The notes: a model not told the origin generated them from the sequence alone. Shown: positions 6,152-39,131, counted from the first letter of the stretch. The stretch is DNA of 39,288 bases from Pseudobdellovibrionaceae bacterium (GCA_947462815.1 CANHQR010000033.1:1-39288); one strand, 5' to 3'. A program made the numbers and translations.

Positions 6152-6188
6152 CTTAGGTCGAGCCCTTCTGAAACTTTGTGCACTCGAG

Positions 6189-6206: not shown

Positions 6207-6221
6207 AACCACAAGCTCCAA

Positions 6222-6238
6222 ATTGGGTCTGACCCAAT
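6222..6238. repeat. 17-bp palindrome, REP-like
   Basis: ATTGGGTC at 6222-6229 and GACCCAAT at 6231-6238 are perfect inverted arms around a single central T. The core GGGTCTGACCC resembles short palindromes that flank REP-associated tyrosine transposases in other bacteria. I see only one copy in this window and no transposase, so REP assignment is inference. An operator is the alternative. Confidence 0.35.
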
Positions 6239-6566
6239 CGCTTCACTGATGAAATCTGACCTCTCACATCGGTCGGGGAACCAGTGTCTTTGGCCGAGGC
6301 TGAAACCGATCTCGGCGTCGAGCGAGAACACTCGATATCGCACTAAGATTAGGCAACACGATCTCGAGCTGGCAAAACACGAAGCTCAATTCCGAAACCG
6401 GTACGCAAATCCCCGCATTGATCATTGCCTCGCCGAGCAAGCGGCGCTACGCCTAATGACAGACTTTGACATAGTCGAGCCGAGTCCGATGGCGGCGCTA
6501 AAGTGTTCACTCCACAGGCCTGGTGCCCGAGCCATTAAGCCGACTTCTCATTTTGCGGAGGCGTCC

Positions 6567-9405: not shown

Positions 9406-9428
9406 CGACAAAGCTTTCGCTGAGTTCG

Positions 9429-10175: not shown

Positions 10176-10300
10176 AGGCAAATTACCTCTACACTTTGAC
10201 CTCAGTTCAAGCTGAAATCCTGAAAAAGTCGACCGAATTCGCGCACCCAGCAGATCAACTTCAAGCCCTAAGGCTTCCAAACTTCCGAGCGGAGGTGAGT

Positions 10301-10744: not shown

Positions 10745-10810
10745 GTCGATTGGCCCGGGCCGAGCGGAGTGAGAGATGGGGCAACTAAGATCTCGTTCAT
10801 CTCACTTAGC

Positions 10811-23277: not shown

Positions 23278-23979
23278 ATGACAGAGATCTCGACTCGCGC
23301 ATCCTCTGACTCGCACGCCGTGGCTTCTCTCGACGAAGACCCCTTGCGTTCAGCCGTGGAAAGACTCCGCCAAGAGATCCGCACGCGTCCGCATCTGAAT
23401 TTACAAGAATTTGTGTTGATCCTGGGTCCAGAAGGACCCGTGATCGCAGCCTTGCTCTTGTCCTTACCTTTTCTGCAACCCTTCCCGCTCATGGGCATCT
23501 CGACGCCGATGGGTTTCACCATTGCGCTCTCCGGATGGGCGATGATGACCCATCGGAAAATTTGGTTGCCTCGCTGGCTGGGCGAGGTCAAATTGCGAAG
23601 CTCGATCATCGGTCGCACGCTCGACTTCTTTGACGGTCTCGAGCGCAGATTTAAAGTTTTTTTGCGCACGGATACAGGTTTTCAGCAAAGCGGTTTTCGC
23701 CGACGCGCTGGACTCGCGATTTGCATTCACGGATTTTTGCTTGGCTTACCTTTGCCGCTGCCTTTCTCGAATACATTGCCAGCTTGGGTGGCCGTGTGGG
23801 GCGGCTTAGCGGTGTTGTTTGCAAGCCCTCGTGCGGCCTGGGCCATGCGCGCGACCGTGCTGATCAATGTCGCCTACTGGGGCGGAACGGTTTACTTGAT
23901 CGCTCGACTGGCCCATCAAATCGGAACATGGAACCCATGGGCTTTAGCCGAGGCCATCGGCCGGGGCTTGGCCTTTTGA
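23278..23979 (+). CDS. ExoD-family membrane protein
   Basis: The 233-residue product matches the exopolysaccharide-synthesis ExoD family in layout. It has a cytoplasmic N-terminus, then a conserved LILGPEGPVIAALLLSLPFL segment leading into PFPLMGISTPMG, and further hydrophobic segments at about 145-165, 170-185 and 200-220. The biochemical role of the family is not known; in Rhizobium it affects exopolysaccharide and alkali tolerance. ATG 23278 has GAGG about ten bases upstream. About 130 bases separate it from clpP. Confidence 0.85.
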   Translation: MTEISTRASSDSHAVASLDEDPLRSAVERLRQEIRTRPHLNLQEFVLILGPEGPVIAALLLSLPFLQPFPLMGISTPMGFTIALSGWAMMTHRKIWLPRWLGEVKLRSSIIGRTLDFFDGLERRFKVFLRTDTGFQQSGFRRRAGLAICIHGFLLGLPLPLPFSNTLPAWVAVWGGLAVLFASPRAAWAMRATVLINVAYWGGTVYLIARLAHQIGTWNPWALAEAIGRGLAF

Positions 23980-24110
23980 ACGGATCGAGACCCAGCACGA
24001 CCCCTCAAAGAGACCTGATTTCTCAGCCCTCCTGCACCAAGCTTGAATCCCTCGGCGAAGTCCCGCAGCATGAAGTCCGGTGGCCTGAATTCAGCTCGAG
24101 GAGTAGCCGC

Positions 24111-24803
24111 ATGCCGAATGATCTCGTTTCGCCCAATGACTTAGTTTCGATGATTCCCGTTCCGACGTCTTCACCCCAATCCGAGCCCCGCATGGATGAC
24201 GGTGATGAGCCGCAAAAGCCCAATCAAGGATCGAACAAAGAGTCCAAACTTCCTAACCCCATCGAAGTGGAGCTCTTCGAAGCACGCATTGTCATGATCT
24301 CAGCGCCCATCGAAGCTAAATTGGCTCACGCGGTGAATGCGAAGCTGTATGCCCTTGAGCGAGCCAACCCCGAAAAACCGATCTATGTGCTCATCAATTC
24401 ACCTGGCGGCGAAATTCAAAGTGGATTCTCAATCTTCGATACCATTCGTTTCATTCGCCCGCGTGTGTACACGGTCGTGACAGGTCTTGCGGCGAGCATG
24501 GGCTCCATCATTGCGCTGGCGGCCTCGCCCGAAGATCGCTTTGCGTTTCCAAATTCGAAGTTCCTTGTGCACCAGCCGCTGATCGCGGGCGGTCTGGCTG
24601 GATCAGCCACCGACATCGCGATTCACGCCAAAGACTTGATTGAGACGAAAAATAAAATTATCGACTTGTATGCAACAGAGACGAAGAAGACGCGCGAAGA
24701 TATTAAAAAAGCCATCGACCGCGACAACTGGATGTCGCCAGAAGCCGCTCGTGATTTCGGATTGATCTCAAAAATTGTATCCAAGCGAACCGAGTTGCCC
24801 TAA
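24111..24803 (+). CDS. clpP: ClpP-family serine protease with acidic N-terminal extension
   Basis: The 230-residue product is a ClpP peptidase. The oxyanion-loop motif is INSPGGEIQSG (95-105). The catalytic triad is S129 (GLAASMGS), H154 (FLVHQP) and D205 (DRDNWMSPEAA). With an unfoldase, ClpP tetradecamers degrade cytoplasmic proteins. The first 50 residues are rich in Pro, Asn, Ser, Asp and Lys and replace the short propeptide or axial loop of typical ClpP. No clpX or clpA is adjacent, so this may be an additional paralogue. ATG 24111 has GAGGAG (24098-24103) seven bases upstream; the frame is open from 23721 inside the ExoD-family gene, but nothing there resembles ClpP. A strong hairpin follows. 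Confidence 0.92.
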   Translation: MPNDLVSPNDLVSMIPVPTSSPQSEPRMDDGDEPQKPNQGSNKESKLPNPIEVELFEARIVMISAPIEAKLAHAVNAKLYALERANPEKPIYVLINSPGGEIQSGFSIFDTIRFIRPRVYTVVTGLAASMGSIIALAASPEDRFAFPNSKFLVHQPLIAGGLAGSATDIAIHAKDLIETKNKIIDLYATETKKTREDIKKAIDRDNWMSPEAARDFGLISKIVSKRTELP

Positions 24804-24825
24804 ACGGCTCGATTTGACCCTGCAC

Positions 24826-24857
24826 AATTTCATCGCGCCCTCTGGCGCGATGAAATT
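24826..24857. terminator. Long perfect hairpin between convergent genes
   Basis: AATTTCATCGCGCC (24826-24839) pairs with GGCGCGATGAAATT (24844-24857) over a CTCT tetraloop, a perfect 14-bp stem. It lies between the stops of clpP (24803) and the minus-strand gene ending at 24908. The A/T outer part can supply short T runs in either direction, so a shared terminator is likely. Confidence 0.75.
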
Positions 24858-24907
24858 CTCGTCTCAAACTGTGATTGAGGGCCACGGCAGTCCTGGGGAG
24901 ATCCTGT

Positions 24908-25897
24908 TCACCGCGTTGTTCGCTGACCCGTCTCGTTGCGATCTGCATCGCGAGTCGGATACCAGACATGGCCTTGCTCCTCACCCACCATGCGCTCAAG
25001 TCCCCGACCGACTCGACCCAAAAAAGCTTCTTCCGCAGCCAATGCACCGAGGCCCACCGCACCGGCTACACCCATACGCGCCGAGCGGACCAAACGACGC
25101 AATTGCTGGAACTGCTGAGCCGGAAGACGAGTCACTGAATAGATCCGTCCTCCGTTTCGAAGCTTCTCGTTGAGCAAGGCTTCGGCACGAGCACGATTAC
25201 CTTGCGCCTCGCCGATTGTTTCATCAAAGCGATAGATCGGTACAGGTCCGCCTCGACGAGCATCCATCGCTCGAGCCCGATAATCGGCAGCTTCGCTATC
25301 CGCCAGTGCGGCCAAAGCCATGTTGCGTGCGTAACCCGCGTGGTCCACTTCTGTGACAGTATAGGAACGAGTCTCGGTTTTACCTTCGTGATCCGTGTAC
25401 GACTCAGTCCTCGTCACTTGTCGGGGAATCAAGGACGAAGCCGCGGCCATCCTGTAGGAAGCGGCACTGCCTTCTGCCGAGCTCGCATTGGAGTCCATCA
25501 ACTGAATGTGATGCTGTCGGTTGGCCGCATCGCTCAGACGCCATTGTACTTGCACGCGATCGCCGTCGGCGACTTCACCGACGAGAGAAGATGGGCGGAT
25601 CTGATCCGCCGCTGAACCGTCCACGCTTTGCATGAGGGATCTCGTGTGAGCCTGATCGAAGTTTCGCGCCTCCCGGTAGCGACGAACCGTGTGAATGGTG
25701 ACGGCCGTGGCTCCTACTGCTGAACCCGCGGTGATCAAGCAGTCGGCCTGTCCCGCCAGACAATTGGCTCGACCATCCGCCGCTCTTTCCACGAGCGATT
25801 GTTGGGCTCGACTCAAATTGGGAAGCGCCAAATTTGAAATCATAAGAGCACTCAAGACTGACTTCATGATGAGTTGTTGACGCTGGCCTGGCTTCAT
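24908..25897 (-). CDS. Exported protein of unknown family
   Basis: The 329-residue product has a signal peptide (hydrophobic about 14-27, cleavage near SRA/QQ at 31). Two cysteines follow (NCLAGQADC), then a hydrophobic TAGSAVGATAVTI stretch. A charged, Ala/Ser-rich region comes next. Near the C-terminus, a Gly/Ala-rich GVAGAVGLGALAAEEAF segment could insert in or associate with membrane. I do not recognise the family. ATG 25897 is clear, with GGGAGG six bases upstream; the longer frame to 26089 is not needed. It is divergent from another exported unknown at 26124, which also carries a Gly/Ala-rich hydrophobic segment late in the protein. Confidence 0.75.
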   Translation of the reverse strand: MKPGQRQQLIMKSVLSALMISNLALPNLSRAQQSLVERAADGRANCLAGQADCLITAGSAVGATAVTIHTVRRYREARNFDQAHTRSLMQSVDGSAADQIRPSSLVGEVADGDRVQVQWRLSDAANRQHHIQLMDSNASSAEGSAASYRMAAASSLIPRQVTRTESYTDHEGKTETRSYTVTEVDHAGYARNMALAALADSEAADYRARAMDARRGGPVPIYRFDETIGEAQGNRARAEALLNEKLRNGGRIYSVTRLPAQQFQQLRRLVRSARMGVAGAVGLGALAAEEAFLGRVGRGLERMVGEEQGHVWYPTRDADRNETGQRTTR

Positions 25898-26123
25898 CAC
25901 ACGCCTCCCAAATAAGCGCTTTCGCCCGTTACTTTCAAAAGCTCCTGGAGATGAGAGGCAAGAGCCGTTCCAAATTGAGACGCCTCGACACCTTCTCAAA
26001 TGCGATAAAATTGACCCCATCCCTTGACGGGCACCTCTTCCCCATCCCAACACGCAAAGGTGACGATTCAGGCGCAACAACAGCGACATTCATGGCTCAA
26101 ATCACGGTCGCCGATAAGTCGGT

Positions 26124-27668
26124 ATGCTTAAAGGCGTTCGCCTTGATCCAAACATGCAGTTCGAGTGCGGGACGCGACACACGCGTTCTGCACGGCATTT
26201 TGAGAAGTTCATACTCTGGGCCGTGGCGATGTTTTTGAGCGTCGGATTCGAGCGGCCTGCATGGCCGCAACAAGAACCCTGTGTCACCTCCATGTTTGAA
26301 GCCGAGATGGGGCAAATTCAAAATCTCAGCGCGGTGATCGAACGCGATGAAGCCTCGCCATTTCGTGTGGCCTGTCATGAACCACCAGGACTGCTTCGAC
26401 AGCGACCGCCGACAGGCCTATTCCGTCGCCAAATTCCAGTGCGCGACTCACGAGGCCGGAATACTCGGGACTTTCTGAGGCGTATTCGCGAACGCGTGCA
26501 ACAAAAGATCACGGAAAATCGCAATATGCTGCGTTCTCTTGAAACTTGCCTAACGCGCTCGCGAGCTCCCGACGGTTGCGAAGACTTACACGTTTGGGCT
26601 GATCGAGAACTCCCTGCCTTTGTCGCCGAAGCCCGGCAGCACTTGGCCCTCGCACAGACCGAACACCAGGTGAATTCTTGGTTCTCCCGCCCGCATCGCG
26701 ATCTCAATTTGCAACTCTCCCCACAGGGAACTGAGAAGATGGTCCCCTGGGCGCCCCTCACCGAGACAGAACGCGAGCTCGCCCAGGAGCGCTTGCGTGG
26801 CTACAATCGCGAAATCCGCTCGGAAGTCGAGCGGCGGATGGCCGACGGTCGCCTACCTCGACCGAGAGCTTCAAGAGCGCGCGTGAGCTCCAGCAGTGCC
26901 TCCGGGCGCTTTTCCGTCGAAGCCGATCGCTTCGCCGCCGACGCCATGCTGGCACAAAGATTCACCCACGCCCAAAGTTATCATGCGATGATCTCTGAGA
27001 TTCCTTTGCTGCAATATCTTTCCTCAGCACAGCCTTCGCGCGAGGAGATTCTAGGCGCAGTCCGACGTATGCAGGACAATCTCCGCGATGAAGAGAAAAT
27101 GGCGGCCGATGCCTGGAAAGAGTTGGAATCAGCTCCCGCGGAGCGTATACCCGCATCGGCGCTGCACTTTCTTCGCTACCAAAGCTTTGTCGAGGAGGAG
27201 TTGGTGCGCGAGCCGGCAGATTGCGGACTCATCACCAGCGTGAGCCACACGCAGCTCAATCGAGATCTCGGCACAGGTCTCGCCATCGGTTTACCGATTT
27301 TGGCGGCTTCGATCTTCGCACCGCCGCTCGCCGCGTTTGGGATCGGTGCCGTCGCAGGTCTTGGTTTCGCGTATGACTCGCAGCTCGAACTCGATCGCAC
27401 GCGGACCATTGCGTTTTCTCAACTCTATGCTGACCCGGCTCAGGGTGAAACTCGCGACGTCGAAGCGGCGGGGCGCGCTCGTGATATGAACCTCGTGCTC
27501 TTGCCACTGAGTTTTGGCGGTGCCGCAGCTGCGACCCGCACCATCGCGGTCCGCATGGGTGCCGCCCAATTCGCAACCAGTTTGGAACAAATGACGCCAT
27601 CGACTCTTGCCCAAGCGGCTGCGGAACGTTTTCGCCGCATCGCTCGCGAAGCGCGTTCCCGACGATAA
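26124..27668 (+). CDS. Large exported or membrane protein of unknown family
   Basis: The 514-residue product has an N-terminal hydrophobic segment (about 29-42), probably a signal sequence ending near AWPQ/Q. A long, charged, mainly helical region (about 60-360) rich in Arg, Glu and Gln follows. A Gly/Ala/Pro-rich double hydrophobic stretch (GLAIGLPILAASIFAPPLAA followed by FGIGAVAGLGFAYD, about 380-415) comes near the end, then a basic C-terminus. It is not a family I can name. The start is uncertain, since ATG 26124 and ATG 26154 both lack good ribosome binding sites; composition supports the frame from the signal segment onward. It may be functionally linked to the divergent 24908 gene. 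Confidence 0.72.
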   Translation: MLKGVRLDPNMQFECGTRHTRSARHFEKFILWAVAMFLSVGFERPAWPQQEPCVTSMFEAEMGQIQNLSAVIERDEASPFRVACHEPPGLLRQRPPTGLFRRQIPVRDSRGRNTRDFLRRIRERVQQKITENRNMLRSLETCLTRSRAPDGCEDLHVWADRELPAFVAEARQHLALAQTEHQVNSWFSRPHRDLNLQLSPQGTEKMVPWAPLTETERELAQERLRGYNREIRSEVERRMADGRLPRPRASRARVSSSSASGRFSVEADRFAADAMLAQRFTHAQSYHAMISEIPLLQYLSSAQPSREEILGAVRRMQDNLRDEEKMAADAWKELESAPAERIPASALHFLRYQSFVEEELVREPADCGLITSVSHTQLNRDLGTGLAIGLPILAASIFAPPLAAFGIGAVAGLGFAYDSQLELDRTRTIAFSQLYADPAQGETRDVEAAGRARDMNLVLLPLSFGGAAAATRTIAVRMGAAQFATSLEQMTPSTLAQAAAERFRRIAREARSRR

Positions 27669-27705
27669 TCTTGAAGACTTCATCTGAACCGGCTTTAATC
27701 TCGAA

Positions 27706-28620
27706 ATGCTGCGCGTTTGGTATTCTGAAGATTTCACCTTGCAACTTCCCGAGGGACATCGATTCCCCATGCGGAAGTATCGTGATCTCCGCGAAGCCCT
27801 CGTCAATGCCTGTATCGTGAATGAGACAGAACTTTTTGAATCACCTGAGGCGACGCGCGACGAACTTCTTTTGGCTCATGATGCCGCGTATGTGGATGGA
27901 ATTCTTAGCGGTAGTCTACCTGAACGCGAATTGAAGCCCATCGGATTTCCTTGGTCACCCGGTCTTGTGCGACGCAGTCGACGAACTGTGGGCGGCGCTC
28001 TGGCCGCCTCACGTTGGGCCCTAGAGCATGGGATTGCCGGACAGCTGGCCGGGGGCACACACCATGCGCACCGAAATCGCGGCGGTGGATATTGTGTCTT
28101 CAATGATCAAGCCTGTGCGGCACTGCATCTGTTGCGTGAGTGTGCCGACAAAGTGCGCCGTGTGCTGATCGTCGATCTCGATGTTCACCAGGGAGATGGC
28201 ACCTCCAGCATTCTGCGAGGCCATGAACAAGTGTACATCTTGAGTTTACATGGAGAGCGAAACTACCCCTTTCGCAAAGTGGCCTCGACCGTCGATCGTG
28301 GCCTACCCGATGGCCTCACGGACATCGACTATATGAAAGTCCTGGATGAAGAACTGGATCGCGCCCTTGGCTTTCGACCTGACTTAATTTTGTATCAAGC
28401 TGGCGTGGACCCCCTGGCCTCGGATCGTTTGGGTAAACTCAGCCTCACCCATGAAGGCCTCAAACAGCGCGATCGGCGTGTCATCGGCTTCGCTCATCAA
28501 CTCAACATCCCGATTTCACTCGCCATGGGCGGAGGCTACGCCGAGCCCATCTCCGACACGGTGAGGGCCCATGTGGGGACCTATGAGGTGGTGCGGGAGT
28601 TCTGGCCCCGAATTCCCTAA
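27706..28620 (+). CDS. Histone deacetylase-fold amidohydrolase
   Basis: The 304-residue product belongs to the zinc-dependent HDAC/AcuC/acetylpolyamine amidohydrolase superfamily, of the compact HDAC11-like type. Visible active-site elements are the tandem histidines H119-H120 (GGTHHAHR), the zinc ligands D159 and H161 in DLDVHQGDGT and D235 in QAGVDPLASD, and Y278 in GGGY. The catalytic set is complete, so it should deacylate an N-acyl (possibly lysine or polyamine) substrate. HDAC11-type enzymes can remove long fatty acyl groups, which is worth noting beside a lipid locus. It lies 37 bases after the preceding gene and 120 bases before the lipid kinase gene. ATG 27706 has no clear ribosome binding site. 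Confidence 0.9.
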   Translation: MLRVWYSEDFTLQLPEGHRFPMRKYRDLREALVNACIVNETELFESPEATRDELLLAHDAAYVDGILSGSLPERELKPIGFPWSPGLVRRSRRTVGGALAASRWALEHGIAGQLAGGTHHAHRNRGGGYCVFNDQACAALHLLRECADKVRRVLIVDLDVHQGDGTSSILRGHEQVYILSLHGERNYPFRKVASTVDRGLPDGLTDIDYMKVLDEELDRALGFRPDLILYQAGVDPLASDRLGKLSLTHEGLKQRDRRVIGFAHQLNIPISLAMGGGYAEPISDTVRAHVGTYEVVREFWPRIP

Positions 28621-28740: not shown

Positions 28741-29751
28741 ATGCGCGTCGCTGTGTTTATCAATGGCAAAGCCGGAAAAGCCGATGCTCAACGCATCGAA
28801 GATGCGATTCGGCGCGCGCTCTTTCGCTGTGACACACATTTGTTTTTGCCCGAAGGCGTGAGTGAATTCCAAGAGCTGATTGTTCAGGAAAGTCAGACCG
28901 CCGACGCCATCATCGTCTGTGGCGGCGACGGCACACTGAATGTGGCCGTTCAGCCTTTGATGACAGATCCTCGTGTCACGCGCATTCCGCCGCTTCTGCC
29001 CTTGCCAATGGGCACAGCCAATGACTTAGCCAGCGAACTGGGAGTTTCGACGGTGAGGCTCGAGCGGGCGGCGCATCTCGTTCTCGAAAGCGATGCAAAG
29101 TCGATCGATGTGATCGAGGTACGAGCGGAAGGTCGATCTGTGTTCATGCTCACCAATGGCGGTTTAGGCATTGCAGCGGAGACGGCAGACTTGGCGAATC
29201 AGGTTCGACAATGGTTTGCGAATCGCGCGGAGTCGCAGGCATTAACCCAGCCTGTGTTTCGCGCCGGCCAAGATCTTGTCCGCCAGGCGGGCTCACGCAT
29301 TTACGAAATGCTCCTAGCAGGACAACTCATGAGCGGGCGGACCCGTCAATGGCTCAAAGGCTGGTGCGTGTCGATCGAACTCGAAAACGGCAAGCATATC
29401 GAAACCAGCGCTCCCTTCATCATGGTCAATAATCAGCCCGGTCTCGGTGGAAAATATGTTCCTGCTCCCCTCACATCGAACACCGACGGCACCTTCAACA
29501 TCATGCTGCTCGATTCGCCGCTCCTTCACCGCCAAGCACAAGCGCTCTTTGACATTCGCCGCGGCCGCTTACCTGATGAGGCTTACTGCCCTCGCTTCGA
29601 AACCTCAGCCGCTGTGTTCCGTTCGAAAGGCAAGGCACGCGATCTGACCTTCTTCGGCGACGGAGAAATTCTCCACAAGCAAGTTCGCGAGATTGAAGTG
29701 CGGTGCCGCAAACATGCGCTTCTGGTCATTGCGCCACAGGGTGCGCTATGA
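28741..29751 (+). CDS. Diacylglycerol/sphingosine kinase-family lipid kinase
   Basis: The 336-residue product has the DAGK catalytic-domain signature. GGDGT lies at 61-65 (ATP binding), followed by PMGTANDLA (89-97), a mid-protein NGGLGI, and the late FFGDGE that matches the conserved DGE region. YegS/DgkB-type enzymes phosphorylate diacylglycerol, sphingoid or other lipid alcohols at the inner face of the cytoplasmic membrane. Residues 150-210 are longer than in small members and the substrate cannot be assigned. GAGG lies four bases before ATG 28741. Its stop overlaps the next start (ATGA at 29748-29751), so it is translationally coupled to the SDR and through it to the acyl-reductase-like gene. 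Confidence 0.9.
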   Translation: MRVAVFINGKAGKADAQRIEDAIRRALFRCDTHLFLPEGVSEFQELIVQESQTADAIIVCGGDGTLNVAVQPLMTDPRVTRIPPLLPLPMGTANDLASELGVSTVRLERAAHLVLESDAKSIDVIEVRAEGRSVFMLTNGGLGIAAETADLANQVRQWFANRAESQALTQPVFRAGQDLVRQAGSRIYEMLLAGQLMSGRTRQWLKGWCVSIELENGKHIETSAPFIMVNNQPGLGGKYVPAPLTSNTDGTFNIMLLDSPLLHRQAQALFDIRRGRLPDEAYCPRFETSAAVFRSKGKARDLTFFGDGEILHKQVREIEVRCRKHALLVIAPQGAL

Positions 29752-30779
29752 GCTCGCTCTTGGTTACCGGAGGGACAGGCTTCCTCGGTCACTTCGTCCA
29801 ACAAGAAATTCAAAGACTCGGTCTCAAAGCCCGCTACCTCACTCGCAAACCGAGCTCGGCCCCTCAAAATCTCGTCGGCGATCTTTCGCGTTGGGACGCT
29901 GGTCTCGATCCCAACGAACTTCGCGATCAATTCTCGGGCCTGCTTCACATGGCTGGACTCTATGACCTACGTGTGGCTCGCGAAGATGCGTTTCTCGCCA
30001 ACGTGATTGGCACGCATACGGCGCTCGCTCTCGCCGAAAAATCGCGAATTCCTGTGTTTGTGCACATCTCGACGGTTGCCGCGACCATGAATCTCCCCCC
30101 GCAAGATTCTCCCATTCAGCCCGGTCAATTCAGTCCCGACGGGCCTTTTCCCGACCCCTATGCCGAAAGCAAAATTCACGCAGAAAAATTGGTCCGCTCC
30201 TGGCCCGGAGAATTTCCGAAGGTGCGATTGATCCTGCGTCCAGGAATCTTAGTCGGCGACACGCAAAATGGGCTCATTCATCGGATCGACGGTCCTTACC
30301 ACGCGCTCGATGCCTTTCGCCGATTGATTCGTGTCCTACGTGCATGGCGCGGTCCTCTGCTCCTCCCCGGTCGCGTGGAGACCCGAATTCCTCTCACGCC
30401 CGTCGATCGCGCGGCTTGGGCGATTGTGCAACTGACGCATGCGGCGCTCCTGCATGGCGAGCGCGGTCTGGCTTCGCTTTTTATCGCTCCGCCTCGTGGG
30501 CCAACAGCGCGCGAACTTTACACCAGCATTCTGCATCACCTCAGTCTCGACCTTGAAGTCCGACTAATCGACCATCAGTCCGCACCCAAATCCTTGCTGA
30601 AAACGGCCAGTGAAGTGATCGCCCACCTTCCGGGAGAGGAGCTCGAGTATCTTCTTGGACTTCCTGATCTCGATGTTTCGGCGACGACGGAGCGCCTGGG
30701 ACTCGACTGGTGCCCGGATTTTGCCAATTCCGCACCTCAGCTTTGGAGAGGCTACGATGCGTTCATACAAAATCGCTGA
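29748..30779 (+). CDS. NAD(P)-dependent extended SDR (epimerase/dehydratase-like)
   Basis: The 343-residue product has the extended-SDR cofactor motif GGTGFLG (8-14), a conserved S108/T109 (HISTVAA) and the catalytic YAESK (Y138, K142). The resemblance is to the dihydroflavonol reductase, 3-beta-hydroxysteroid dehydrogenase and fatty-acyl-reductase side of the family rather than sugar epimerases, so oxidation or reduction of a lipid-type alcohol or ketone is a reasonable guess. The C-terminal substrate domain (about 200-343) is not diagnostic. ATG 29748 overlaps the lipid kinase stop by four bases. Its own last 23 bases overlap the start of the next gene. The open frame from 29703 is within the kinase gene. 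Confidence 0.9.
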   Translation: MSSLLVTGGTGFLGHFVQQEIQRLGLKARYLTRKPSSAPQNLVGDLSRWDAGLDPNELRDQFSGLLHMAGLYDLRVAREDAFLANVIGTHTALALAEKSRIPVFVHISTVAATMNLPPQDSPIQPGQFSPDGPFPDPYAESKIHAEKLVRSWPGEFPKVRLILRPGILVGDTQNGLIHRIDGPYHALDAFRRLIRVLRAWRGPLLLPGRVETRIPLTPVDRAAWAIVQLTHAALLHGERGLASLFIAPPRGPTARELYTSILHHLSLDLEVRLIDHQSAPKSLLKTASEVIAHLPGEELEYLLGLPDLDVSATTERLGLDWCPDFANSAPQLWRGYDAFIQNR

Positions 30780-32919
30780 ACTGAGTTTCGGCTCTTCACG
30801 CTGGGATCATCTCACCCACTTTACAGCAGGTGAGGGCGAGTTTGAGCTTCAGCGCTTTGGCGTTGAGTACTCGGTCGATACACTCAAACGCATGATCGAG
30901 CGCCTCAGAGGCGAAGTCGACGCGATCTCGCTCACCAGTTTTCCATCGGAGATCCGCTTCCGAGATCGCGTTTACACCCACCGTCAAGCCCTCGACATTA
31001 TGACCACACCCACCTCGATTCCGCTCTGTAACGGCGAGCGAGTGCGCGAGCTCACAGAGATCGACGGTCTGGTTCACCTCATTCGCGAAGGCAGTATTTT
31101 TCCTCGCGACGGAATTTTCGTTCCCTTGGCACTCTTGCACATGGAAGCGGTTTCGCTGCTTCGGGAAAAGTTTGATGCACGTATCGGCTTCGGCGACGTG
31201 TTCGCAATTTTCAAGCAACCTTTGGTCGCCGAACCTTGGCCCTGGCTACTTGAACTCGCGAAGCTCGGCTTAGGCTTTGCCCAGCTTCGAGAGATGGGAG
31301 ATCTTGCACCGTCTCCCCGCACCGTGCGCGAGCAGCAAGCTTTAGAAAAACTGATCGGCGCCATGCGCGGCTATCGTTATATTTACGGCGACCCCTCTGA
31401 GATTATTTTATTTGCCATGAACGCCGAAGTCCTGGGTGGGGGCACCGACTTTGTACGTGGCAAGGAGATCATCACAACCACTTCCGATCCGCGAATGTTA
31501 GCTGAGCTCCGGCGTTTGGGTGCCTCGCACATTCATCGAATTTTCCCGGCAAGTTTTGAGGACTGGAGCCCTCGTCTCACCCACGCGAGTGCCGATGCCG
31601 TGCTTCGCCTGTTGAACGGCAAGTCCACGCCCCTTTCTCTGGAAGAGTGGCAAGATGTGCTCTCAGCACGCACGGAGATCACTCAAGAAACTAAGCGTTG
31701 GGTGATGACCGCACGTCCCAGCGTGCAAACTCGGCTCGCCGCGCGAGCCATCGGGCGCCGACGCAAACGTGCGGTCGAGCGAGAACCTGACTTTGCCTTC
31801 GTCGTTCACTCCCTATCTTACCGAGATCTCACCCGCGCTCCAGGGCTTAAGCTCATGCGCAAGTTACCCAAAAACTTACAGCCTCATCTGGAACGCGCCA
31901 CCTCGCATCTTCCCGGAATTGTTTACGGACGAGCCAGCGGTATTGTTTCCGAAGCCACCGGCCGCGAGATCACAGGACTCATCTACGGTCTCTTCGCCAC
32001 CCCGCGAGTCATGAAGGAAGATCCGCCCGAGGTCACATACGGGAAAATCGAGAAACTTTGTCATCATGCGGCCGATCACGGCGCGAAGATTATTGGCCTT
32101 GGCGCCTATACCAAAATTGTCGGAGATGCCGGAGCCACCATCAACCGCATGAGCCCCATCCCTGTTACGACGGGTAACTCGCTGAGCGCGAGCGCAACTC
32201 TTTGGGCTGTGCATGATGCTGTTCGCAAGATGCGCCTTCTTGAAGTTTCACCCCACAGCCGCCGCGTTCGCGGCACGGCAATGGTGATCGGCGCAACCGG
32301 CTCCATCGGCAAGGTTTCCGCCAAGCTCCTGGCCATGGTGTTTGAACGACTCGTACTCATCGCTCCTCGCATCGAGCGCCTCGAGGAACTGGCTCACGAA
32401 ATTCGTCAACTCGCACCCAGCTGTGAGATCCGCCTCTCCACACGGGCCAATGATTTTGCAGAAGAGTCTGATGTCATCGTCACGGCGACCAGCGCCTTCG
32501 ACCAGAAAGTTGTCGACATCCATAAACTGAAGCCTGGCGCCGTGGTTTGCGACTGTTCGCGGCCACTCGATTTCACTTTGGAGGATGCCATCGCCCGACC
32601 CGATGTCTTGTTTATCGAGTCCGGCGAGGTGGAGCTCCCGGGGGCAGAGAAACAGTTGGATTGCGACTTGGGCTTACCCGGCAAGGTCGTCTACGCGTGT
32701 CTCGGCGAAACCGCCTTGCTCGCTCTTGAAGAGCGATACGAGGCCTTCACCCTCGGCCGCGATCTCGACTGGCAGCGAGTCAAAGAAATCTACAAACTGG
32801 CCACGCGCCACGGCGTGAAACTGGCCGCCGTTCGCGGCCCGAGTGGCTTGATTTCAGATCGGGAAATTCAACTCTGCCGCGACTTAGCACTTCGTCGCCG
32901 AACTCTCACTCAGTCTTAA
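30757..32919 (+). CDS. Two-part protein: unidentified N-domain fused to acyl-ACP reductase-like domain
   Basis: The product has 720 residues. About 345-715 resembles cyanobacterial acyl-ACP reductase (COG5322-type; acyl-ACP to fatty aldehyde with NADPH). AADHGAKIIGLGAYTKIV and VTTGNSLSASATLWAV match its N-terminal substrate region. MVIGATGSIGKVSAKLLA carries the nucleotide motif G512-G518. VVYACLGETALLALEE aligns with the catalytic-cysteine segment (FACFAEA), making C648 the probable acyl-thioester cysteine. Residues 1-340 are not part of known acyl-ACP reductases and I cannot name them; they contain a short helix-rich stretch and a Gly-rich EVLGGGTDFVRG. ATG 30757 has GGAGAGG five bases upstream and overlaps the SDR gene by 23 bases. 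The product is most likely an aldehyde or a related reduced acyl intermediate. Confidence 0.82.
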   Translation: MRSYKIAELSFGSSRWDHLTHFTAGEGEFELQRFGVEYSVDTLKRMIERLRGEVDAISLTSFPSEIRFRDRVYTHRQALDIMTTPTSIPLCNGERVRELTEIDGLVHLIREGSIFPRDGIFVPLALLHMEAVSLLREKFDARIGFGDVFAIFKQPLVAEPWPWLLELAKLGLGFAQLREMGDLAPSPRTVREQQALEKLIGAMRGYRYIYGDPSEIILFAMNAEVLGGGTDFVRGKEIITTTSDPRMLAELRRLGASHIHRIFPASFEDWSPRLTHASADAVLRLLNGKSTPLSLEEWQDVLSARTEITQETKRWVMTARPSVQTRLAARAIGRRRKRAVEREPDFAFVVHSLSYRDLTRAPGLKLMRKLPKNLQPHLERATSHLPGIVYGRASGIVSEATGREITGLIYGLFATPRVMKEDPPEVTYGKIEKLCHHAADHGAKIIGLGAYTKIVGDAGATINRMSPIPVTTGNSLSASATLWAVHDAVRKMRLLEVSPHSRRVRGTAMVIGATGSIGKVSAKLLAMVFERLVLIAPRIERLEELAHEIRQLAPSCEIRLSTRANDFAEESDVIVTATSAFDQKVVDIHKLKPGAVVCDCSRPLDFTLEDAIARPDVLFIESGEVELPGAEKQLDCDLGLPGKVVYACLGETALLALEERYEAFTLGRDLDWQRVKEIYKLATRHGVKLAAVRGPSGLISDREIQLCRDLALRRRTLTQS

Positions 32920-32927
32920 GTCTGCCT

Positions 32928-34289
32928 TTAGAGGTTCGTACGGAGGAGCTGAGGAATCGACATTCGCACCAAACGTCGAATCGGCATGATACTGGCGATC
33001 AGCGTGGTGAGGGCCGGTAACATCAGCGCCTGTGCAAAGTGCGCCGGCTGAATCTCTAAGAAAATCAGAAACTGGCGGGTGATACCTGGCCCCGGTGGCA
33101 TGGGAATTCCACGCGCGAGTACGGTCGCGTTCAGTACGACAGCGACAGCGATTCCCAAGAGACCACCGAGCAATCCCAAGAGTGCACTCTCCACACTCAA
33201 GATCGCAAAGACCCGACGCCTTGATTCGCCATTGGCTCGGAGCGCGCCCACTTCGCCAGCTCGCTCAAACAGCCCCGTGGCGATTGTGTTGAAAATCCCC
33301 AGCGCCACGATGAGCAACATGATACTGCGAATGAACGAAAACTGCGCGTCCAAGAACTCCACGGCGTTACGGTAGTAGACCTTGTCTAATTCATCAAAGG
33401 GCTCAGCATCGACTTCGGGGATCGTCTCGCGAATTGCCGCCGCAACCTTCGGCCAGTCTTCAACTCCACCGGTCGCGAGCGAAAAGAGCTCGACCCTTTG
33501 CGTATCGATGAGGCTTTGGGCCGTGGGAAGTTCCATTCTGAAAAAGGTGTCATCAAATTCTTTTGAGCCTGTATGAAAGATGCCGGTCACAGCCAGTTCC
33601 ACGCCGTTGAGCTGTCCGTTGACCGTCTGAGCGAGAATCGTCAGAGGTTCTCCAACCTTCACATTGAGGGAATCTGCAAGACCCTTCCCCAATATCAATC
33701 CTGTCTTGGCATCACCGAGCGACCCAAGATCTCCGCCAGCCACGAAGTTCATGGCAGAGAAGAACTTGGATTCACGTTCACTCAACACACCTTCCCCACG
33801 TCCCGCCAGCGTGATGCCGCCTTTCATCAAGAACGCGTAAAAGCTCACCCTCGGAAAAACTTCTTGAACTTCTGGTACACGCTTGAGTCGCTCCTCGACC
33901 GTCAAATTCGGCGAGCTGGCCACTTCCGGGGCGGAGACACCCGGTGCGTCGACGGACTGACCTTGGCCCGACGTGGGCGAAGATTGAAGCGCATTCTCCA
34001 GCCAAAGTTTCCAAGGCTCCTCCACCTTCTTTTGAAGATAGCCCTTGGGGAAGACCTGTCCGTGTCCGTAACGAACGCGAATGGTATTCTCGCGATACTG
34101 ATTCATGATGCCTTCATTGAATCCTTGATAAATCAATAGCCCCGCAGCACCAAAAGCCACGGTGAAAAGACTCGCGAAGGTCCGACGCTTGTTTCTGAAC
34201 AAGCTTCGCCACGCGAGATGAATCCAAGTCGTGATGGTGACGCCCATTCGAGTTCGGCTCGTATTTGAGGACAAAGTGCGATATTCCAC
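32928..34289 (-). CDS. FtsX/LolE-type ABC transporter permease
   Basis: The 453-residue product has the MacB/FtsX/LolCE topology. One N-terminal transmembrane helix (about 38-56, after RNKRRTFASL) is followed by a large periplasmic domain (about 57-315). Three C-terminal helices (about 315-340, 365-392 and 415-437) enclose the GEVGALRANGESRRRVF coupling segment. This class extracts lipids or lipoproteins from the inner membrane, or acts mechanically from the periplasmic side, rather than moving solutes through a pore. It has no fused ATPase, so it is not MacB itself. The start is GTG 34289, directly after the ATPase stop, with GGAGGG as ribosome binding site. Only one permease is present, which suggests a homodimer. 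It converges on the acyl-reductase-like gene, with a gap of nine bases. Confidence 0.92.
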   Translation of the reverse strand: MEYRTLSSNTSRTRMGVTITTWIHLAWRSLFRNKRRTFASLFTVAFGAAGLLIYQGFNEGIMNQYRENTIRVRYGHGQVFPKGYLQKKVEEPWKLWLENALQSSPTSGQGQSVDAPGVSAPEVASSPNLTVEERLKRVPEVQEVFPRVSFYAFLMKGGITLAGRGEGVLSERESKFFSAMNFVAGGDLGSLGDAKTGLILGKGLADSLNVKVGEPLTILAQTVNGQLNGVELAVTGIFHTGSKEFDDTFFRMELPTAQSLIDTQRVELFSLATGGVEDWPKVAAAIRETIPEVDAEPFDELDKVYYRNAVEFLDAQFSFIRSIMLLIVALGIFNTIATGLFERAGEVGALRANGESRRRVFAILSVESALLGLLGGLLGIAVAVVLNATVLARGIPMPPGPGITRQFLIFLEIQPAHFAQALMLPALTTLIASIMPIRRLVRMSIPQLLRTNL

Positions 34290-35048
34290 TTAGCCCTCCC
34301 CGCCCGGAGCCGGATCTGCGCCACGGCCCTTTGAAGTAACTAAGCGCCCTTGATGTAGCATGTGAACGCTTTGAGCATAGCTGAGCAGATGATGATCGTG
34401 AGTTGAGAACACAAAACTCACACCTTCCTTTTCGCGAAGCTCCTGAAAGGCTGCAACAATGGTATCAGATGTATCTCGATCGAGATTGGCCGTCGGCTCA
34501 TCAGCCAGAATCACCTTAGGTCTCTTGGCAAGAGCGCGTGCGATCGCCACACGTTGTCGCTGACCACCGGAAAGTTCTCGCGGAAGTTTATGCGCGTGTT
34601 CGACGAGGCCCACGCGAGCCAAGGTCTCCATGCCTCGATCGCGGGATTCGGCCCGACTTAAGCCTAGCGACGGCAAGAAGTAGGTCGTATTCTCAATCAC
34701 GGTTAGGGTCGGCAGAAGAAAGAAGGCCTGGAAAACAAAGCCAAGCTCACGCAGACGCAAGTCCTCAAGCTCGCGCTCACTCAGTTGGCGAACGTCACGG
34801 CCGACAAAGTTCACGCGACCTTTTTGCGGTGGCTCCAAAAGCCCCAGAATGTTGAGGAGCGTGGTCTTGCCACTACCGCTCGGACCCACAAGACAGGTCA
34901 TAATCCCGGCTTCAACACGCAGATCTATGCCCTTGAGAACTTCAGCTCGCGCTGCACCTTCGCCATAAGCGAAGTGCAAATTCTCGGTCACAATGACCGA
35001 TTCGGACCTAGTGAGATGAGTCGAGGAGGATGCTGAGTGGGGTGTCAC
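34290..35048 (-). CDS. LolD/MacB-type ABC transporter ATP-binding protein
   Basis: The 252-residue product is a complete ABC ATPase: Walker A GPSGSGKTT (55-63), Q-loop FVFQAFFLLPTLTV, signature LSGGQRQRVAIARAL, Walker B VILADEPTANLD and switch histidine FSTHDH. The spacing and sequence belong to the LolD/MacB/FtsE class that partners FtsX-type permeases. Its stop abuts the permease start, so the two form one transporter. The start is uncertain: GTG 35048 has no clear ribosome binding site, and the first 18 residues are Ser/Thr-rich and may not be translated. It is divergent from the LolA-like gene, with under 70 bases between starts, so the two units probably share a control region. Confidence 0.93.
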   Translation of the reverse strand: MTPHSASSSTHLTRSESVIVTENLHFAYGEGAARAEVLKGIDLRVEAGIMTCLVGPSGSGKTTLLNILGLLEPPQKGRVNFVGRDVRQLSERELEDLRLRELGFVFQAFFLLPTLTVIENTTYFLPSLGLSRAESRDRGMETLARVGLVEHAHKLPRELSGGQRQRVAIARALAKRPKVILADEPTANLDRDTSDTIVAAFQELREKEGVSFVFSTHDHHLLSYAQSVHMLHQGRLVTSKGRGADPAPGGEG

Positions 35049-35114
35049 GATTTCGAAGTCTAGCCCATGCGTCGACGCTTATCCAATCAGATTGCTTCGG
35101 GTAAGCTGAGGGGC

Positions 35115-35936
35115 ATGGAAAAAATCCTCGACGGTCTTCGCAACCTGCGCCGGCCTGTTCTATTTTGTCTTCCTACAACCGGCATCGTTTTCGGCCTCTC
35201 GATCCTGGCAATTGGGGCCGGTGCAAACCCGAATTCCGCTCCCGCCACAAAGTCGGCTCAATCAGCATCTCAAAAGGCCAGCTCCTTGGCATCCATCGAT
35301 GCCGAAAAGCTCCTCGCCCGCGCCGATCAAGTTCGCAATCCCGCCGAAAGCTATGTCATGCGCGTGCAGGTCAAGACGGATTCCAGCGATCAAGAATTCG
35401 AGGTTTCACTCAAAGGCCAAGACAAAACCCTGATTGTCGCGAAGAAGCCTGCGAGCGATATCGGTCGCAATATGCTCATGCTGGATCGGCAGATCTTTGC
35501 CTATATCCCCAATCTCAAACGGACCACGGCGTTGAGTCTTCAGTACAAACTTTCAGGACAGGTCGCCAATGGCGACATAGCCCGCACGCGCTGGTCAGGC
35601 GACTACACGCCTTCCCTCGAATCCCTGGAAGGGGATCTCGCAATCCTCTTTTTAAAGGGCGCAAAGCCCAATTTGACCTATCAGAACCTACGCCTTTGGG
35701 TGAACAAGAAGAACGCGCACCCCGACCGCGCGGAGTTTCTTGGTTTGGACGGAAAGACACTCCTCAAGCGGGCTCGCTACACAGATTACAAAAGCCTCGC
35801 CGGGGCCTTGCGCCCGACTCGACTTGAGATTCAAGATCCAGCAGGAAAGACTTCGACCATTAGCATTCTCAGCATGCAGGCTCGCGAGTTCTCGGACTCT
35901 CTGTTTGCAGAATCCAACTTGGAGCGAGCAAGATGA
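35115..35936 (+). CDS. LolA-like periplasmic carrier (outer-membrane lipoprotein-sorting protein family)
   Basis: The 273-residue product has a signal peptide (hydrophobic about 20-36, cleavage near GAGA/NPN). The mature domain belongs to the LolA-like family often annotated as outer membrane lipoprotein-sorting protein. EKLLARADQVRNPAESYVMRV, then VSLKGQDKTLIVAKKPASDIGRNML, the LMLDRQIFAYIPNLKR stretch and GDIARTRWSGDYT are typical. The family's half-barrel can shield a lipid in the periplasm. ATG 35115 follows TGAGGGG closely; the frame is open to 35067 but gives an unnaturally long n-region. Its stop overlaps the next start (ATGA). The position beside an FtsX-type transporter and an outer-membrane barrel suggests a dedicated lipid shuttle. 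Confidence 0.87.
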   Translation: MEKILDGLRNLRRPVLFCLPTTGIVFGLSILAIGAGANPNSAPATKSAQSASQKASSLASIDAEKLLARADQVRNPAESYVMRVQVKTDSSDQEFEVSLKGQDKTLIVAKKPASDIGRNMLMLDRQIFAYIPNLKRTTALSLQYKLSGQVANGDIARTRWSGDYTPSLESLEGDLAILFLKGAKPNLTYQNLRLWVNKKNAHPDRAEFLGLDGKTLLKRARYTDYKSLAGALRPTRLEIQDPAGKTSTISILSMQAREFSDSLFAESNLERAR

Positions 35937-37183
35937 ACTCGAATTGGAGAGGCCGCGTTCAAAGCTCCCTCTCCGCCCAAAATCACAATCAGAATCACAA
36001 TCAGAATCACAATCAGGATCGCACTCGGGAGCTCATTCGAGATCTCGTCCCTTCACTGGCTCTGACCTTGGCGCTGACCTTGGCTCTGGCTGGCTTGCCA
36101 ACTTCAGCACAAGCCCAACTCGCCCACCGAATTGAGTATGTTCCGCGGCTTGACCATATTCAAACCTGGCGATCCGACACCCAAGCTCCAGATAACTTTG
36201 CACAACGCCTTTTCCTCAAAGGCGCATGGGATACGGCCGGCGCCATAGGCCCACATCCTTTGCGATTGCGATTTGAGGGATTTACAGAGCGAGAAACGAC
36301 GGGACGACGCGAAGACCGGGAGGAAAGCGATCTTCAAGAAGCCTGGCTGGATACGGGATTTAAAAACCTCAGCCTGCGATTCGGGCGACAGCCGATTCGC
36401 TGGAGCCAATCTTGGACACTGCCATCTGTCGACTATTTTACGGGACGCCGACTGCACCGATTATTCATCGATCCCCTACCCGAGCAGCTCTCTCACCCCG
36501 ATGCTGTCCGGATTTTGTATGCAACGAGCGAAGGTGAACTTGAGCTCGTGCGAATTTTTCGTTCGAGTCCCACTCGCCAGCCAGCTCTCCTTAGTCGCAT
36601 CGATCGGCGCGACGATCAGCAATGGGGGTTTCGCGGCAACGCCAAATTCGGCGCATTCAACTTGAGCGCCATGGCGCGAACCCTCGAGGTCAGCTCAGCT
36701 TCTCGCTCGGACGATCGAAGAAACGACTTTGGCCTGCAAGCCTCTTGGTCTTGGGATGAATTCGTACTGAAGACCGAAATGGGCGGCGGTCAAATTGAAT
36801 CCCAAACCCAGTCGCAGTTTCTGATCTTAGGTGTCGACTATTTTAAAGGTGATTGGAGTTTCACGCCGCAAGTCACTCTCTGGAGAGATCGTACACTCAC
36901 GTCAGATCGGGACGAACAACAGCTCTATCTGCCACTTCGATGGCTGAAGGAAAAGTGGTCCGCCGAGCTCGAAGGTCTTCACACCGTCGGCAAACGCGAT
37001 CACTACATCAACATCAGCATCACTCGCGAGGTCGGTACCAATTTCCTGAGTGGGCTCACCTTGACAGCCTTTTTTCAAGACTACCTGGGTGATCCCACCC
37101 GTTTGCTCGGTTTCTATGAACGTCAGACTCGCGGACAACTCTTCGGACTTCGTCTCAACTACCAAGGAGGGCTCGAGCTATGA
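35933..37183 (+). CDS. Outer-membrane beta-barrel protein with extended, repeat-containing signal peptide
   Basis: The 416-residue product has an unusual leader. A 38-residue hydrophilic n-region contains NHNQ three times (17-28). The hydrophobic LALTLALTLALAGL core follows, with a cleavage site near AQA/QL (61). The mature part reads as alternating beta strands with frequent aromatic and charged residues (SLRFGRQPIRWSQSW, FNLSAMARTLEV, FVLKTEMGGGQIE, WSFTPQVTLWRD), typical of a barrel of about 14-18 strands. It resembles outer-membrane proteins found beside LolA-like and MacB-like genes, but no named family fits. The start overlaps the LolA-like stop as ATGA and its end overlaps the DUF3419 start, so all are coupled. 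It could be the outer-membrane receiver of the lipid. Confidence 0.85.
   Translation: MNSNWRGRVQSSLSAQNHNQNHNQNHNQDRTRELIRDLVPSLALTLALTLALAGLPTSAQAQLAHRIEYVPRLDHIQTWRSDTQAPDNFAQRLFLKGAWDTAGAIGPHPLRLRFEGFTERETTGRREDREESDLQEAWLDTGFKNLSLRFGRQPIRWSQSWTLPSVDYFTGRRLHRLFIDPLPEQLSHPDAVRILYATSEGELELVRIFRSSPTRQPALLSRIDRRDDQQWGFRGNAKFGAFNLSAMARTLEVSSASRSDDRRNDFGLQASWSWDEFVLKTEMGGGQIESQTQSQFLILGVDYFKGDWSFTPQVTLWRDRTLTSDRDEQQLYLPLRWLKEKWSAELEGLHTVGKRDHYINISITREVGTNFLSGLTLTAFFQDYLGDPTRLLGFYERQTRGQLFGLRLNYQGGLEL
35981..36016 (+). repeat. Three perfect 12-bp tandem repeats in a signal peptide
   Basis: AATCACAATCAG occurs three times in a row at 35981, 35993 and 36005, encoding NHNQ each time. It is in frame in the n-region of the outer-membrane protein leader. 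A degenerate continuation follows. Confidence 0.9.
36062..36085 (+). repeat. Two 12-bp repeats in the hydrophobic core of the same signal peptide
   Basis: CTGACCTTGGCG (36062-36073) and CTGACCTTGGCT (36074-36085) encode LTLA twice. The unit length equals that of the NHNQ repeat upstream, and copy-number change would alter the length of the h-region without shifting frame. Confidence 0.7.
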
Positions 37184-38274
37184 GCCAGTACTTTGAAAAT
37201 CTCAACTATACGCTTTCCAACGAAGACACGCGGATCGAATATCGAATCTGCCGCGAAGGCTTGAGTCGTGTCTTTTGCATTGGCGGAAGTGGCGCCCGCG
37301 TACTTCCAATATTGGCGAAGCGACCTGAAACACTCGACATCGTCGATCTCTCACAAGAGCAGCTGGCTCTCATCGAGCTGCGAATCTCCGCAGCTCGACA
37401 GCTCAATCGTGATGAGTTTCTCTTCTTTCTGGGCTATCGCGGTGGCATTGCAGGCGATGGAGTCGGTGAGGACCATCGATCGACGCTGTTTGATCAGCTC
37501 GAACTTTCCGCCGCTACGCGGGCCTTTTGGTCAGATCGCGAGGCCGCGTGGCGGCCTCGCGGCTTCATACTTCTCGGCCGCTGGGAGGGCCATTTCCAGA
37601 AACTAGGGAGAGTCTTTCGAGATGTGCTAAGAATTGATAGCCGCAAGATTTTTGCAGCTCACTCCCTGGATGAGCAACGCGTCCTCTTCAAGGAGCACTT
37701 TAAACCCCTCGTCTTCAAAGCCTTCATTAAAATCGCGGCCAGTGAATTCGTGTTCAATCGCTTTTTGTATAAGGGTCATTTCTCCGGCCGTAGTGAAACA
37801 CGTACCGAAAGCCGATCGCCTTCGACCTTCATCGAAGAGGAGTTTACTCGACTCTTTCAGCAGACTTTAGTGCGAAAGAACTATTTTCTTCAGGTCTTGT
37901 TCCTTGGTGAAATCGCCCATGAGGAGGCCTTACCGTTAGAGTGCCGCGTGGATGTGTTGGACCAGGTCAAAAAGGCAAAAACGCAAATTCATTATCGAAA
38001 AGAAAATCTCCTCGATGTGATTAACAAGGACCACTTCGAGTTTCTTTCCCTCAGCGACACGATCTCCTATCTTCCCAACGAGGCCGCACACCGTTTGCTG
38101 ACCGACCTGCCATCGGCCACTCCGCCCGGAGCGCGAGCTGTGATTCGTTCATTTTTACGCCGACCGCCGACCTATGAAACTCGCGGATGGAAGCGTCTGG
38201 AGTCTGAAGAAGCTTGGGCCAAAGCTCTGGATACCACCGGAGTTTACGAGTTCGATGTATTTGAAAAGCTTTGA
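37180..38274 (+). CDS. DUF3419/BtaA-like S-adenosylmethionine:3-amino-3-carboxypropyl transferase
   Basis: The 364-residue product matches the DUF3419 family, whose characterised member BtaA transfers the 3-amino-3-carboxypropyl group of SAM to diacylglycerol in betaine-lipid synthesis. Diagnostic segments are LNYTLSNEDTRIEYRI (8-23), the SAM-binding FCIGGSGARVL (32-42) and VDLSQEQLALIELR (55-68) with an acidic residue (D56) after the strand. FLGYRGG follows, then the late FLSLSDTISYLP motif. No BtaB-like N-methyltransferase is nearby, so the product may stay unmethylated or be processed otherwise, and the acceptor need not be diacylglycerol. ATG 37180 overlaps the previous stop as ATGA. It is the only cytoplasmic enzyme in an operon of envelope proteins. 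Confidence 0.87.
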   Translation: MSQYFENLNYTLSNEDTRIEYRICREGLSRVFCIGGSGARVLPILAKRPETLDIVDLSQEQLALIELRISAARQLNRDEFLFFLGYRGGIAGDGVGEDHRSTLFDQLELSAATRAFWSDREAAWRPRGFILLGRWEGHFQKLGRVFRDVLRIDSRKIFAAHSLDEQRVLFKEHFKPLVFKAFIKIAASEFVFNRFLYKGHFSGRSETRTESRSPSTFIEEEFTRLFQQTLVRKNYFLQVLFLGEIAHEEALPLECRVDVLDQVKKAKTQIHYRKENLLDVINKDHFEFLSLSDTISYLPNEAAHRLLTDLPSATPPGARAVIRSFLRRPPTYETRGWKRLESEEAWAKALDTTGVYEFDVFEKL

Positions 38275-38288
38275 GATCGAGGTCAGAT

Positions 38289-39131
38289 TTGCGCTCTTCC
38301 ATCTCGCTCAGGGTTCAACTCATCGCCGCGGCCTCCCTCTGGGCCTTGGCGCTTAACTTCGAAGCGAAAGCCAGCGCCCAAAACCCGACACTTAATTCCC
38401 CCGCCTCCTCGCCTGCGGTGATCGACAACATGGATGCACCCGCTCGAAGCTTCTTTCCGCATCTGACCTATGATGCTCGCGCCTTGGGTTCGTGGAACTT
38501 CGCGATTCAACAGACCCCTGGGACGAATCTCAACACCACAATTTGGCTCTCAAGCCTCGTGGTCGGTGTTGGCGAGCGATTTGAAATTGGCACAGTTCCG
38601 CTGTTATGGATGACGTCCGATCACGATATGAACTTTTCTTGGAAGGCCGAGTTTTGGCGCGGTTCAGAGTTCACCTGGGCAATTCTGAACTCGGTTATGC
38701 AGTTTCATCTACGACTCCCTCCAGATGACGCCTTCGCCTCAACGACGCCCACGCTTCGTCTCGAAAGCAGCACTCTGGCGACAACTTATCGACCTATTGA
38801 TCGAGAATGGATCGCTTCAGTCTTCGGTACCGCTAGTCAGACCTATATCAACGGCGTGAACGACCTCATCCGCCTTTACACTCTTCGAACCCAGTTTGAA
38901 CATGGTCTAGATGTGCAATTTCCCGTCGGCGGAAACGGCGATCGCCTGACTCTTGGGGTTGGACGACTTCGCGAGGCCGGCGTGACAGCCTATGAAGGCT
39001 TAGAGACTCGTGCAGGCTTCACCTATTCCTGGGATTTTGGCCAAACTGCGTGGATTCAATTTCCACAGCTCGGCATCAGTCTTAATCCCGGAACTGGCAA
39101 CCTACGCTGGTTGTTGAACGCGCGATTTTAA
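38289..39131 (+). CDS. Probable outer-membrane beta-barrel protein
   Basis: The 280-residue product has a signal peptide (hydrophobic about 10-22, cleavage near ASA/QN). A short Ser/Pro/Asn linker follows, then a strand-rich domain (FEIGTVPLLWMTSDHD, MNFSWKAEFWRGSEF, QFHLRLPP, FTYSWDFGQTAWIQF) ending LLNARF. The C-terminal phenylalanine preceded by alternating hydrophobic residues is the outer-membrane beta-signal recognised by the Bam complex. I chose TTG 38289 because GAGG lies six bases upstream; TTG 38271, overlapping the previous stop, is possible but lacks a ribosome binding site. It is the last gene of the LolA-like, barrel, DUF3419 operon. Confidence 0.8.
   Translation: MRSSISLRVQLIAAASLWALALNFEAKASAQNPTLNSPASSPAVIDNMDAPARSFFPHLTYDARALGSWNFAIQQTPGTNLNTTIWLSSLVVGVGERFEIGTVPLLWMTSDHDMNFSWKAEFWRGSEFTWAILNSVMQFHLRLPPDDAFASTTPTLRLESSTLATTYRPIDREWIASVFGTASQTYINGVNDLIRLYTLRTQFEHGLDVQFPVGGNGDRLTLGVGRLREAGVTAYEGLETRAGFTYSWDFGQTAWIQFPQLGISLNPGTGNLRWLLNARF

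Follow-up and report, generated by a model that had tools for sequence, protein, structure and literature searches.

The window analysed here is the whole of contig C33, 39,288 bp of a 3.43-Mb genome (96% complete, 107 contigs) whose nearest named relatives are Bdellovibrionota. A first-pass annotation had picked out a run of lipid- and envelope-related genes within it, and all of these are present side by side at 28741–38274, and their families and catalytic motifs are as expected. The plus strand encodes a lipid kinase of the DAGK_cat/YegS type (28741–29751), an SDR or fatty-acyl-reductase-like oxidoreductase (29748–30779) and a fusion of an N-terminal domain with an acyl-thioester reductase domain of the AAR/PigE type (30757–32919). 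On the minus strand lie an FtsX/MacB-type ABC permease, of a single type (32928–34289), and a LolD-like ABC ATPase (34290–35048). The plus strand then resumes with a LolA-like periplasmic carrier bearing a signal peptide (35067–35936), a predicted outer-membrane beta-barrel (35933–37183) and a DUF3419 (BtaA-family) protein, a putative SAM:3-amino-3-carboxypropyl transferase (37180–38274). Two starts were reset by conservation, that of the SDR to 29748 and that of the fusion, whose listed reading frame began at 30655, to 30757. Four overlaps of 4 to 23 bases had been counted at the locus; the same-strand overlaps on the plus strand number five (4, 23, 4, 4 and 4 bases), the kinase and SDR genes sharing 4.

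A small barrel-like ORF with a TTG start (38271–39131, plus strand), which has no Pfam match, had also been assigned to the locus. We found no relative of it at the corresponding position in related loci. Its relatives, 28–33% identical, sit far off in Bdellovibrio genomes, a placement that removes it from the conserved system, and it is probably a passenger. Upstream of the cluster and outside it, positions 23721–28620 encode a ClpP-like protein (ORF 23721–24803), two hypothetical proteins and a histone-deacetylase-like protein (27706–28620), with partial synteny only inside the window's own family.

The kinase matches Pfam PF00781 at 71.9 bits (cut-off 23.6), keeps its GGDGT motif and does not reach the NCBIfam cut-offs set for YegS or the other named kinases; orthologues 40–63% identical occupy the same place in relatives. 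The SDR (NAD_binding_4/Epimerase; PF07993, 72.8 bits) retains YAESK and the glycine motif. With 166.4 bits against the curated PF11899 cut-off of 28.2, the last enzyme belongs to DUF3419, and its GSG/D/SD motifs show little or no variation across 33 orthologues. BtaA is reported to transfer an aminocarboxypropyl group to diacylglycerol, giving its homoserine ether (PMC3972451), and family membership makes the DUF3419 protein a putative aminocarboxypropyl transferase.

The fusion enzyme divides into an N-terminal domain of approximately residues 1–335, for which we found no Pfam family and no Foldseek fold match of its own, and a reductase domain of approximately residues 340–720. It had been described as an acyl-ACP-reductase-like fusion that keeps the catalytic cysteine. 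Both the fold and the cysteine bear this out: the AlphaFold model (pLDDT 87.9) matches 6jzy in Foldseek with a TM of 0.78 over residues ~340–720 (TM 0.78–0.79 for the cyanobacterial AAR fold), and Cys294 of cyanobacterial AAR aligns with fusion residue 648 (codon 32698–32700), which is invariant in 46 orthologues. PDB matches are to 4ppm (2e-30) and 6jzq (5e-12). The nearest domain, however, is the thioester reductase of PigE and not cyanobacterial AAR, from which the fusion also differs in its ~22% identity, its extra N-terminal domain and the lack of any ADO partner seen. NCBIfam scores fall under the cut-off for both PigE (166.8 against 850 bits) and AAR (TIGR04058, 46.8 against 449.7 bits), leaving fold and Cys294 as the features held in common with AAR. 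The PigE profile match covers only positions 2–338 of 837, the aminotransferase half is absent, and the protein is thus not a PigE member. Thioester reduction has been reported for PigE (PMC8341465).

In one Firmicutes locus (L105), the N-terminal and reductase parts are separate adjoining genes, so the fusion joins partners that are found together elsewhere. The two lie there (8491–11083) between dusB-like and greA/lysS-like genes; in another Firmicutes locus (L103, 9923–11059) the reductase stands alone between the same flanking genes, the location being conserved. A Bdellovibrio relative also carries an 858-aa aminotransferase-plus-AAR-like protein adjoining an 836-aa PigC-like dikinase (L037, G059:C10, 9562–14638), a possible pair of prodigiosin-type genes.

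Relatives with 40–70% identical proteins carry the same genes together. An alignment search of named genomes returned 73 loci, and a single-protein search of contigs gave no matches. Within the stretches fetched for these loci, many of which end at contig ends, the kinase was present in 65, the SDR in 68 and DUF3419 in 51. The order kinase–SDR–fusion–DUF3419 is constant in the loci found, and this core is seen in Bdellovibrio (including the B. bacteriovorus kdesi locus, L070), Bacteriovorax, Halobacteriovorax and Oligoflexales. Across 241 genomes of the phylum, with the fusion called at more than 238 bits and the tally made from the listed places, the fusion occurs in 73 and DUF3419 in 81; both occur in 71, and within 12 kb of each other in 67. 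DUF3419 is therefore present in 71 of the 73 fusion-positive genomes, and the fusion in 71 of the 81 with DUF3419 (Fisher p ~3e-47, uncorrected for phylogeny). This clustering is far from chance. The first-pass annotation had named an absence of conserved clustering among related genomes, or unrelated phylogenetic patterns among the components with no lipid difference in strains lacking them, as grounds for abandoning its proposal. Instead, two or more major lineages of the phylum have the genes clustered, and the distance patterns of kinase, SDR, reductase and DUF3419 closely match (mirror-tree r 0.78–0.96), a match for part of which shared descent alone accounts. The clustering is real and old, and we regard a single conserved biosynthetic cluster as well supported.

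The locus in the window is cut off by the contig end, and stands there without a ligase, UbiA-like, dikinase, GNAT or formyltransferase cassette. In relatives, the genes downstream of DUF3419 encode a GNAT protein, a dikinase with the domain order of Rph and PigC, a UbiA-like protein and an AMP-ligase. In the window's own genome, contig C28 (L114) carries the same four genes at bases 144–6740, in the relatives' order and orientation. The start of C28 repeats what relatives have after DUF3419, and this gene order makes C33 and C28 probable neighbours; their contig ends have no shared sequence. The dikinase retains the swivelling His. It could be labelled a PEP synthase, a label ruled out by the absence of a C-terminal PEP-binding domain and by a domain order that we take to be that of the Rph and PigC families. 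A hydrolase gene lies between formyltransferase and ligase, and a ligase-fused form of it was identified in Bdellovibrio. Olefin (Ole) synthesis, suggested by the similarity of the ligase to OleC and of the hydrolase to OleB, was rejected because the condensing OleA was not found in the cluster. With the missing enzymatic cassette restored, the locus looks like a specialised-lipid biosynthetic cluster and not a simple membrane-lipid operon. The gene types may also hint at a link to sphingolipid synthesis.

Two alternative cassettes occur, in which the ligase and UbiA-like genes are accompanied by either an acetyltransferase-type (GNAT) or a formyltransferase-type gene. Among 61 ligase-module loci, with some genomes counted twice, 25 have the GNAT gene, 29 the formyltransferase, seven neither in the stretch and none both; three Bdellovibrio loci, once extended, resolved into two of the formyltransferase type and one of the GNAT type. 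Mean ligase identity is 55% within a cassette type against 24% between types, and that of the UbiA-like protein 42% against 23%; the kinase, SDR, fusion and DUF3419 show no sharp split. A fusion tree of 57 rows shows eight changes of cassette type, even inside Bdellovibrio, and well-supported branches require five or more of these. On this tree, then, the cassettes appear to have been swapped at least five times while the core stayed conserved. In the formyltransferase, the NxHHGLLP and D-G-I motifs are intact. A natural reading, which we put forward as a possibility, is that both cassettes cap an amine, one that DUF3419 chemistry could make available. In one family of the phylum (L115–L117), DUF3419 is found with P450, ligase, UbiA-like, dikinase and GNAT genes and without the fusion, so the link between DUF3419 and the cassette is independent of the fusion.

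We propose a model, and lean towards it with measured confidence, in which a modular, vertically conserved Bdellovibrionota cluster makes and exports an acyl-derived amphiphile. A product that is acyl-derived and carries an aminocarboxypropyl group is likely, and its delivery to the outer membrane by the linked transporter is on balance probable. What we observe are the genes present, their conservation and co-occurrence, the mutual exclusion of the cassettes, the folds and the intact catalytic motifs; all substrates, the sequence of reactions and the direction of export are inferred, as follows. The AMP-ligase on C28, the acyl carrier pool, or both would provide an activated acyl thioester, which the fusion enzyme would convert to an aldehyde using its catalytic Cys and NADPH. 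The SDR and lipid kinase may reduce and phosphorylate intermediates, and the UbiA-like protein and PigC/Rph-like dikinase may join or phosphorylate building blocks. The DUF3419 enzyme would add a 3-amino-3-carboxypropyl group from SAM, and the exchangeable cassette would modify the product, the GNAT plausibly placing an acyl group, or the formyltransferase a formyl group, on the new amine. Export would begin with extraction of the product from the inner membrane by the LolD-like/FtsX transporter; the LolA-like protein would carry it, and the barrel would receive or pass it at the outer membrane.

The export set resembles LolCDE–LolA in having a LolD-like ATPase, an FtsX-fold permease and a LolA-fold carrier, but has a single permease and a barrel in place of LolB, and its scores are not those of the lipoprotein-releasing system. 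The permease (FtsX 60.9, MacB_PCD 34.7 bits; orthologues 55–70% identical in relatives) scores 98.7 on the LolCE model against a cut-off of 362; the ATPase (ABC_tran 118 bits) scores 206 on the LolD model, the best of its class, against 308; and the carrier scores 15.1 on the LolA model against 23.6. The carrier is instead a member of LolA_like (PF17131, 99.8 against 30 bits), with a phmmer match to 3buu (Nitrosomonas NE2245) at 3e-40. For the barrel, the AlphaFold model (pLDDT 74.7) has ~20 predicted strand segments and Foldseek matches to OmpC, AlgE and Occ porins at E ~1e-10; together with a signal sequence, read by eye in a region modelled at low confidence, this predicts an outer-membrane barrel. 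The ABC, FtsX and LolA-like genes and a barrel homologue adjoin the core in Bacteriovoracia too. There, a distant barrel homologue follows the LolA-like gene (hhalign 96%), and so the four-part export set recurs in both main lineages. In two close relatives (L022, 8148–8834; L023) a small NAD-binding PF13460 protein replaces the FtsX/LolD pair between the fusion and LolA-like genes.

Linkage of these genes to the core varies. In flanks of limited length, 36 of the 61 ligase-module loci are without a linked transporter, as are many Bacteriovoracia clusters, and a single system for synthesis and export is therefore not a necessity. The locus could then be two independent neighbours, an amphiphilic-metabolite cluster with a Lol-type lipoprotein export set sited within it. 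Consistent with this, the window has the ATPase and permease genes on the opposite strand, and several Bdellovibrio genomes have them apart from the core; moreover, a search of the window's own genome gave no PF03548 LolA, so that the LolA-like protein could serve lipoproteins there. Against it, LolA-like orthologues (more than 230 bits) follow the core in both lineages, and in 31 of 35 genomes they are no more than 15 kb from the fusion. Complete Bdellovibrio genomes have an ordinary LolA (PF03548) tens to hundreds of kilobases away, so the LolA-like carrier is additional in them, and the ordinary LolA is present in genomes with and without the locus. Three other LolCE-like permeases in the window genome also outscore that of the cluster. 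We therefore think independent neighbours unlikely. The earlier proposal, an unusual lipid moved to the outer membrane by a route parallel to Lol, draws support from the clustering and from the extra carrier beside ordinary LolA; that the product is a lipid, and that it arrives at the outer membrane, are inferred.

BtaA-family membership and a diacylglycerol-type kinase in the core would also suit a conventional betaine lipid (diacylglyceryl-homoserine) made by the DUF3419 enzyme for phosphate stress, with the other genes serving lipid remodelling. The SAM-pocket-like motifs are conserved as in the BtaA/BtaB pathway, but the cluster companions are unrelated to betaine lipids, and there is no methyltransferase family, and hence no BtaB N-methyltransferase, among the annotated cluster genes. 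The constant partners (thioester reductase, ligase, UbiA-like protein, PigC-like dikinase, and formyltransferase or GNAT) would be unneeded, and we found no paper tying Bdellovibrio to betaine lipids. This explanation seems to us improbable.

Peptides and small molecules, too, are exported by transporters of the FtsX/MacB type. A diffusible signal, pigment or antibiotic secreted by such an exporter and a porin-like barrel would suit a reductase nearest PigE, a dikinase (on C28 and in relatives) whose domain make-up is that of PigC, RedH and Rph, and a barrel similar to porins for export and diffusion; some clusters also contain P450, nitroreductase and exchangeable tailoring genes. It is nevertheless the least probable product, since the LolA-like carrier implies that the cargo is hydrophobic, the lipid-type kinase and the UbiA-like protein are constant members, and phylum-wide vertical conservation of the core suggests a structural role. 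Set beside the prodigiosin enzymes PigE and PigC, the cluster has neither an aminotransferase half nor pyrrole genes, and both proteins fall under the PigE and PigC cut-offs.

For an exported acyl-derived amphiphile, the reading that we prefer, the nearest precedent is the aryl polyene cluster, in which a specialised lipid has a LolA-like chaperone and an inner-membrane transporter to itself and is proposed to reach the outer membrane (PMC8253772). Our cluster has the LolA-like chaperone and the inner-membrane transporter, and would share the specialised lipid-like product. Aryl polyene clusters, however, have ketosynthases, dehydratases, ACPs, an RND transporter and a LolB-like protein, whereas here the transporter is of the LolD/FtsX type and the partner a barrel; no ketosynthases, dehydratases or ACPs were found among the Pfam-scanned cluster genes, and the locus is not an aryl polyene cluster. 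We found no paper on such a cluster in the literature searched. A Bdellovibrio transposon study (PMC6561027) mentions neither lipid nor kinase in its main text, and a predator comparison (PMC11656739) names no member of the locus in the section consulted.

It is tempting to speculate, as a tentative and more specific proposal, that the product belongs to a new class of envelope lipid specific to Bdellovibrio-like bacteria. It would have a reduced acyl chain and an aminocarboxypropyl group from SAM, with formyl on the amine in some species and another acyl group in others, according to the cassette, and would travel by its own LolD/FtsX–LolA–barrel route. If the exported amphiphile is real, predatory bacteria would have in common an envelope component that has gone unrecognised and that is served by a dedicated export line, and the envelope is central to the life of these organisms inside prey. 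The DUF3419 and LolA_like families would gain a function beyond betaine lipids and lipoprotein sorting. The genes are directly testable in the genetically tractable Bdellovibrio bacteriovorus, and the cassette switch provides a natural experiment, one that should show as a mass change between close relatives.
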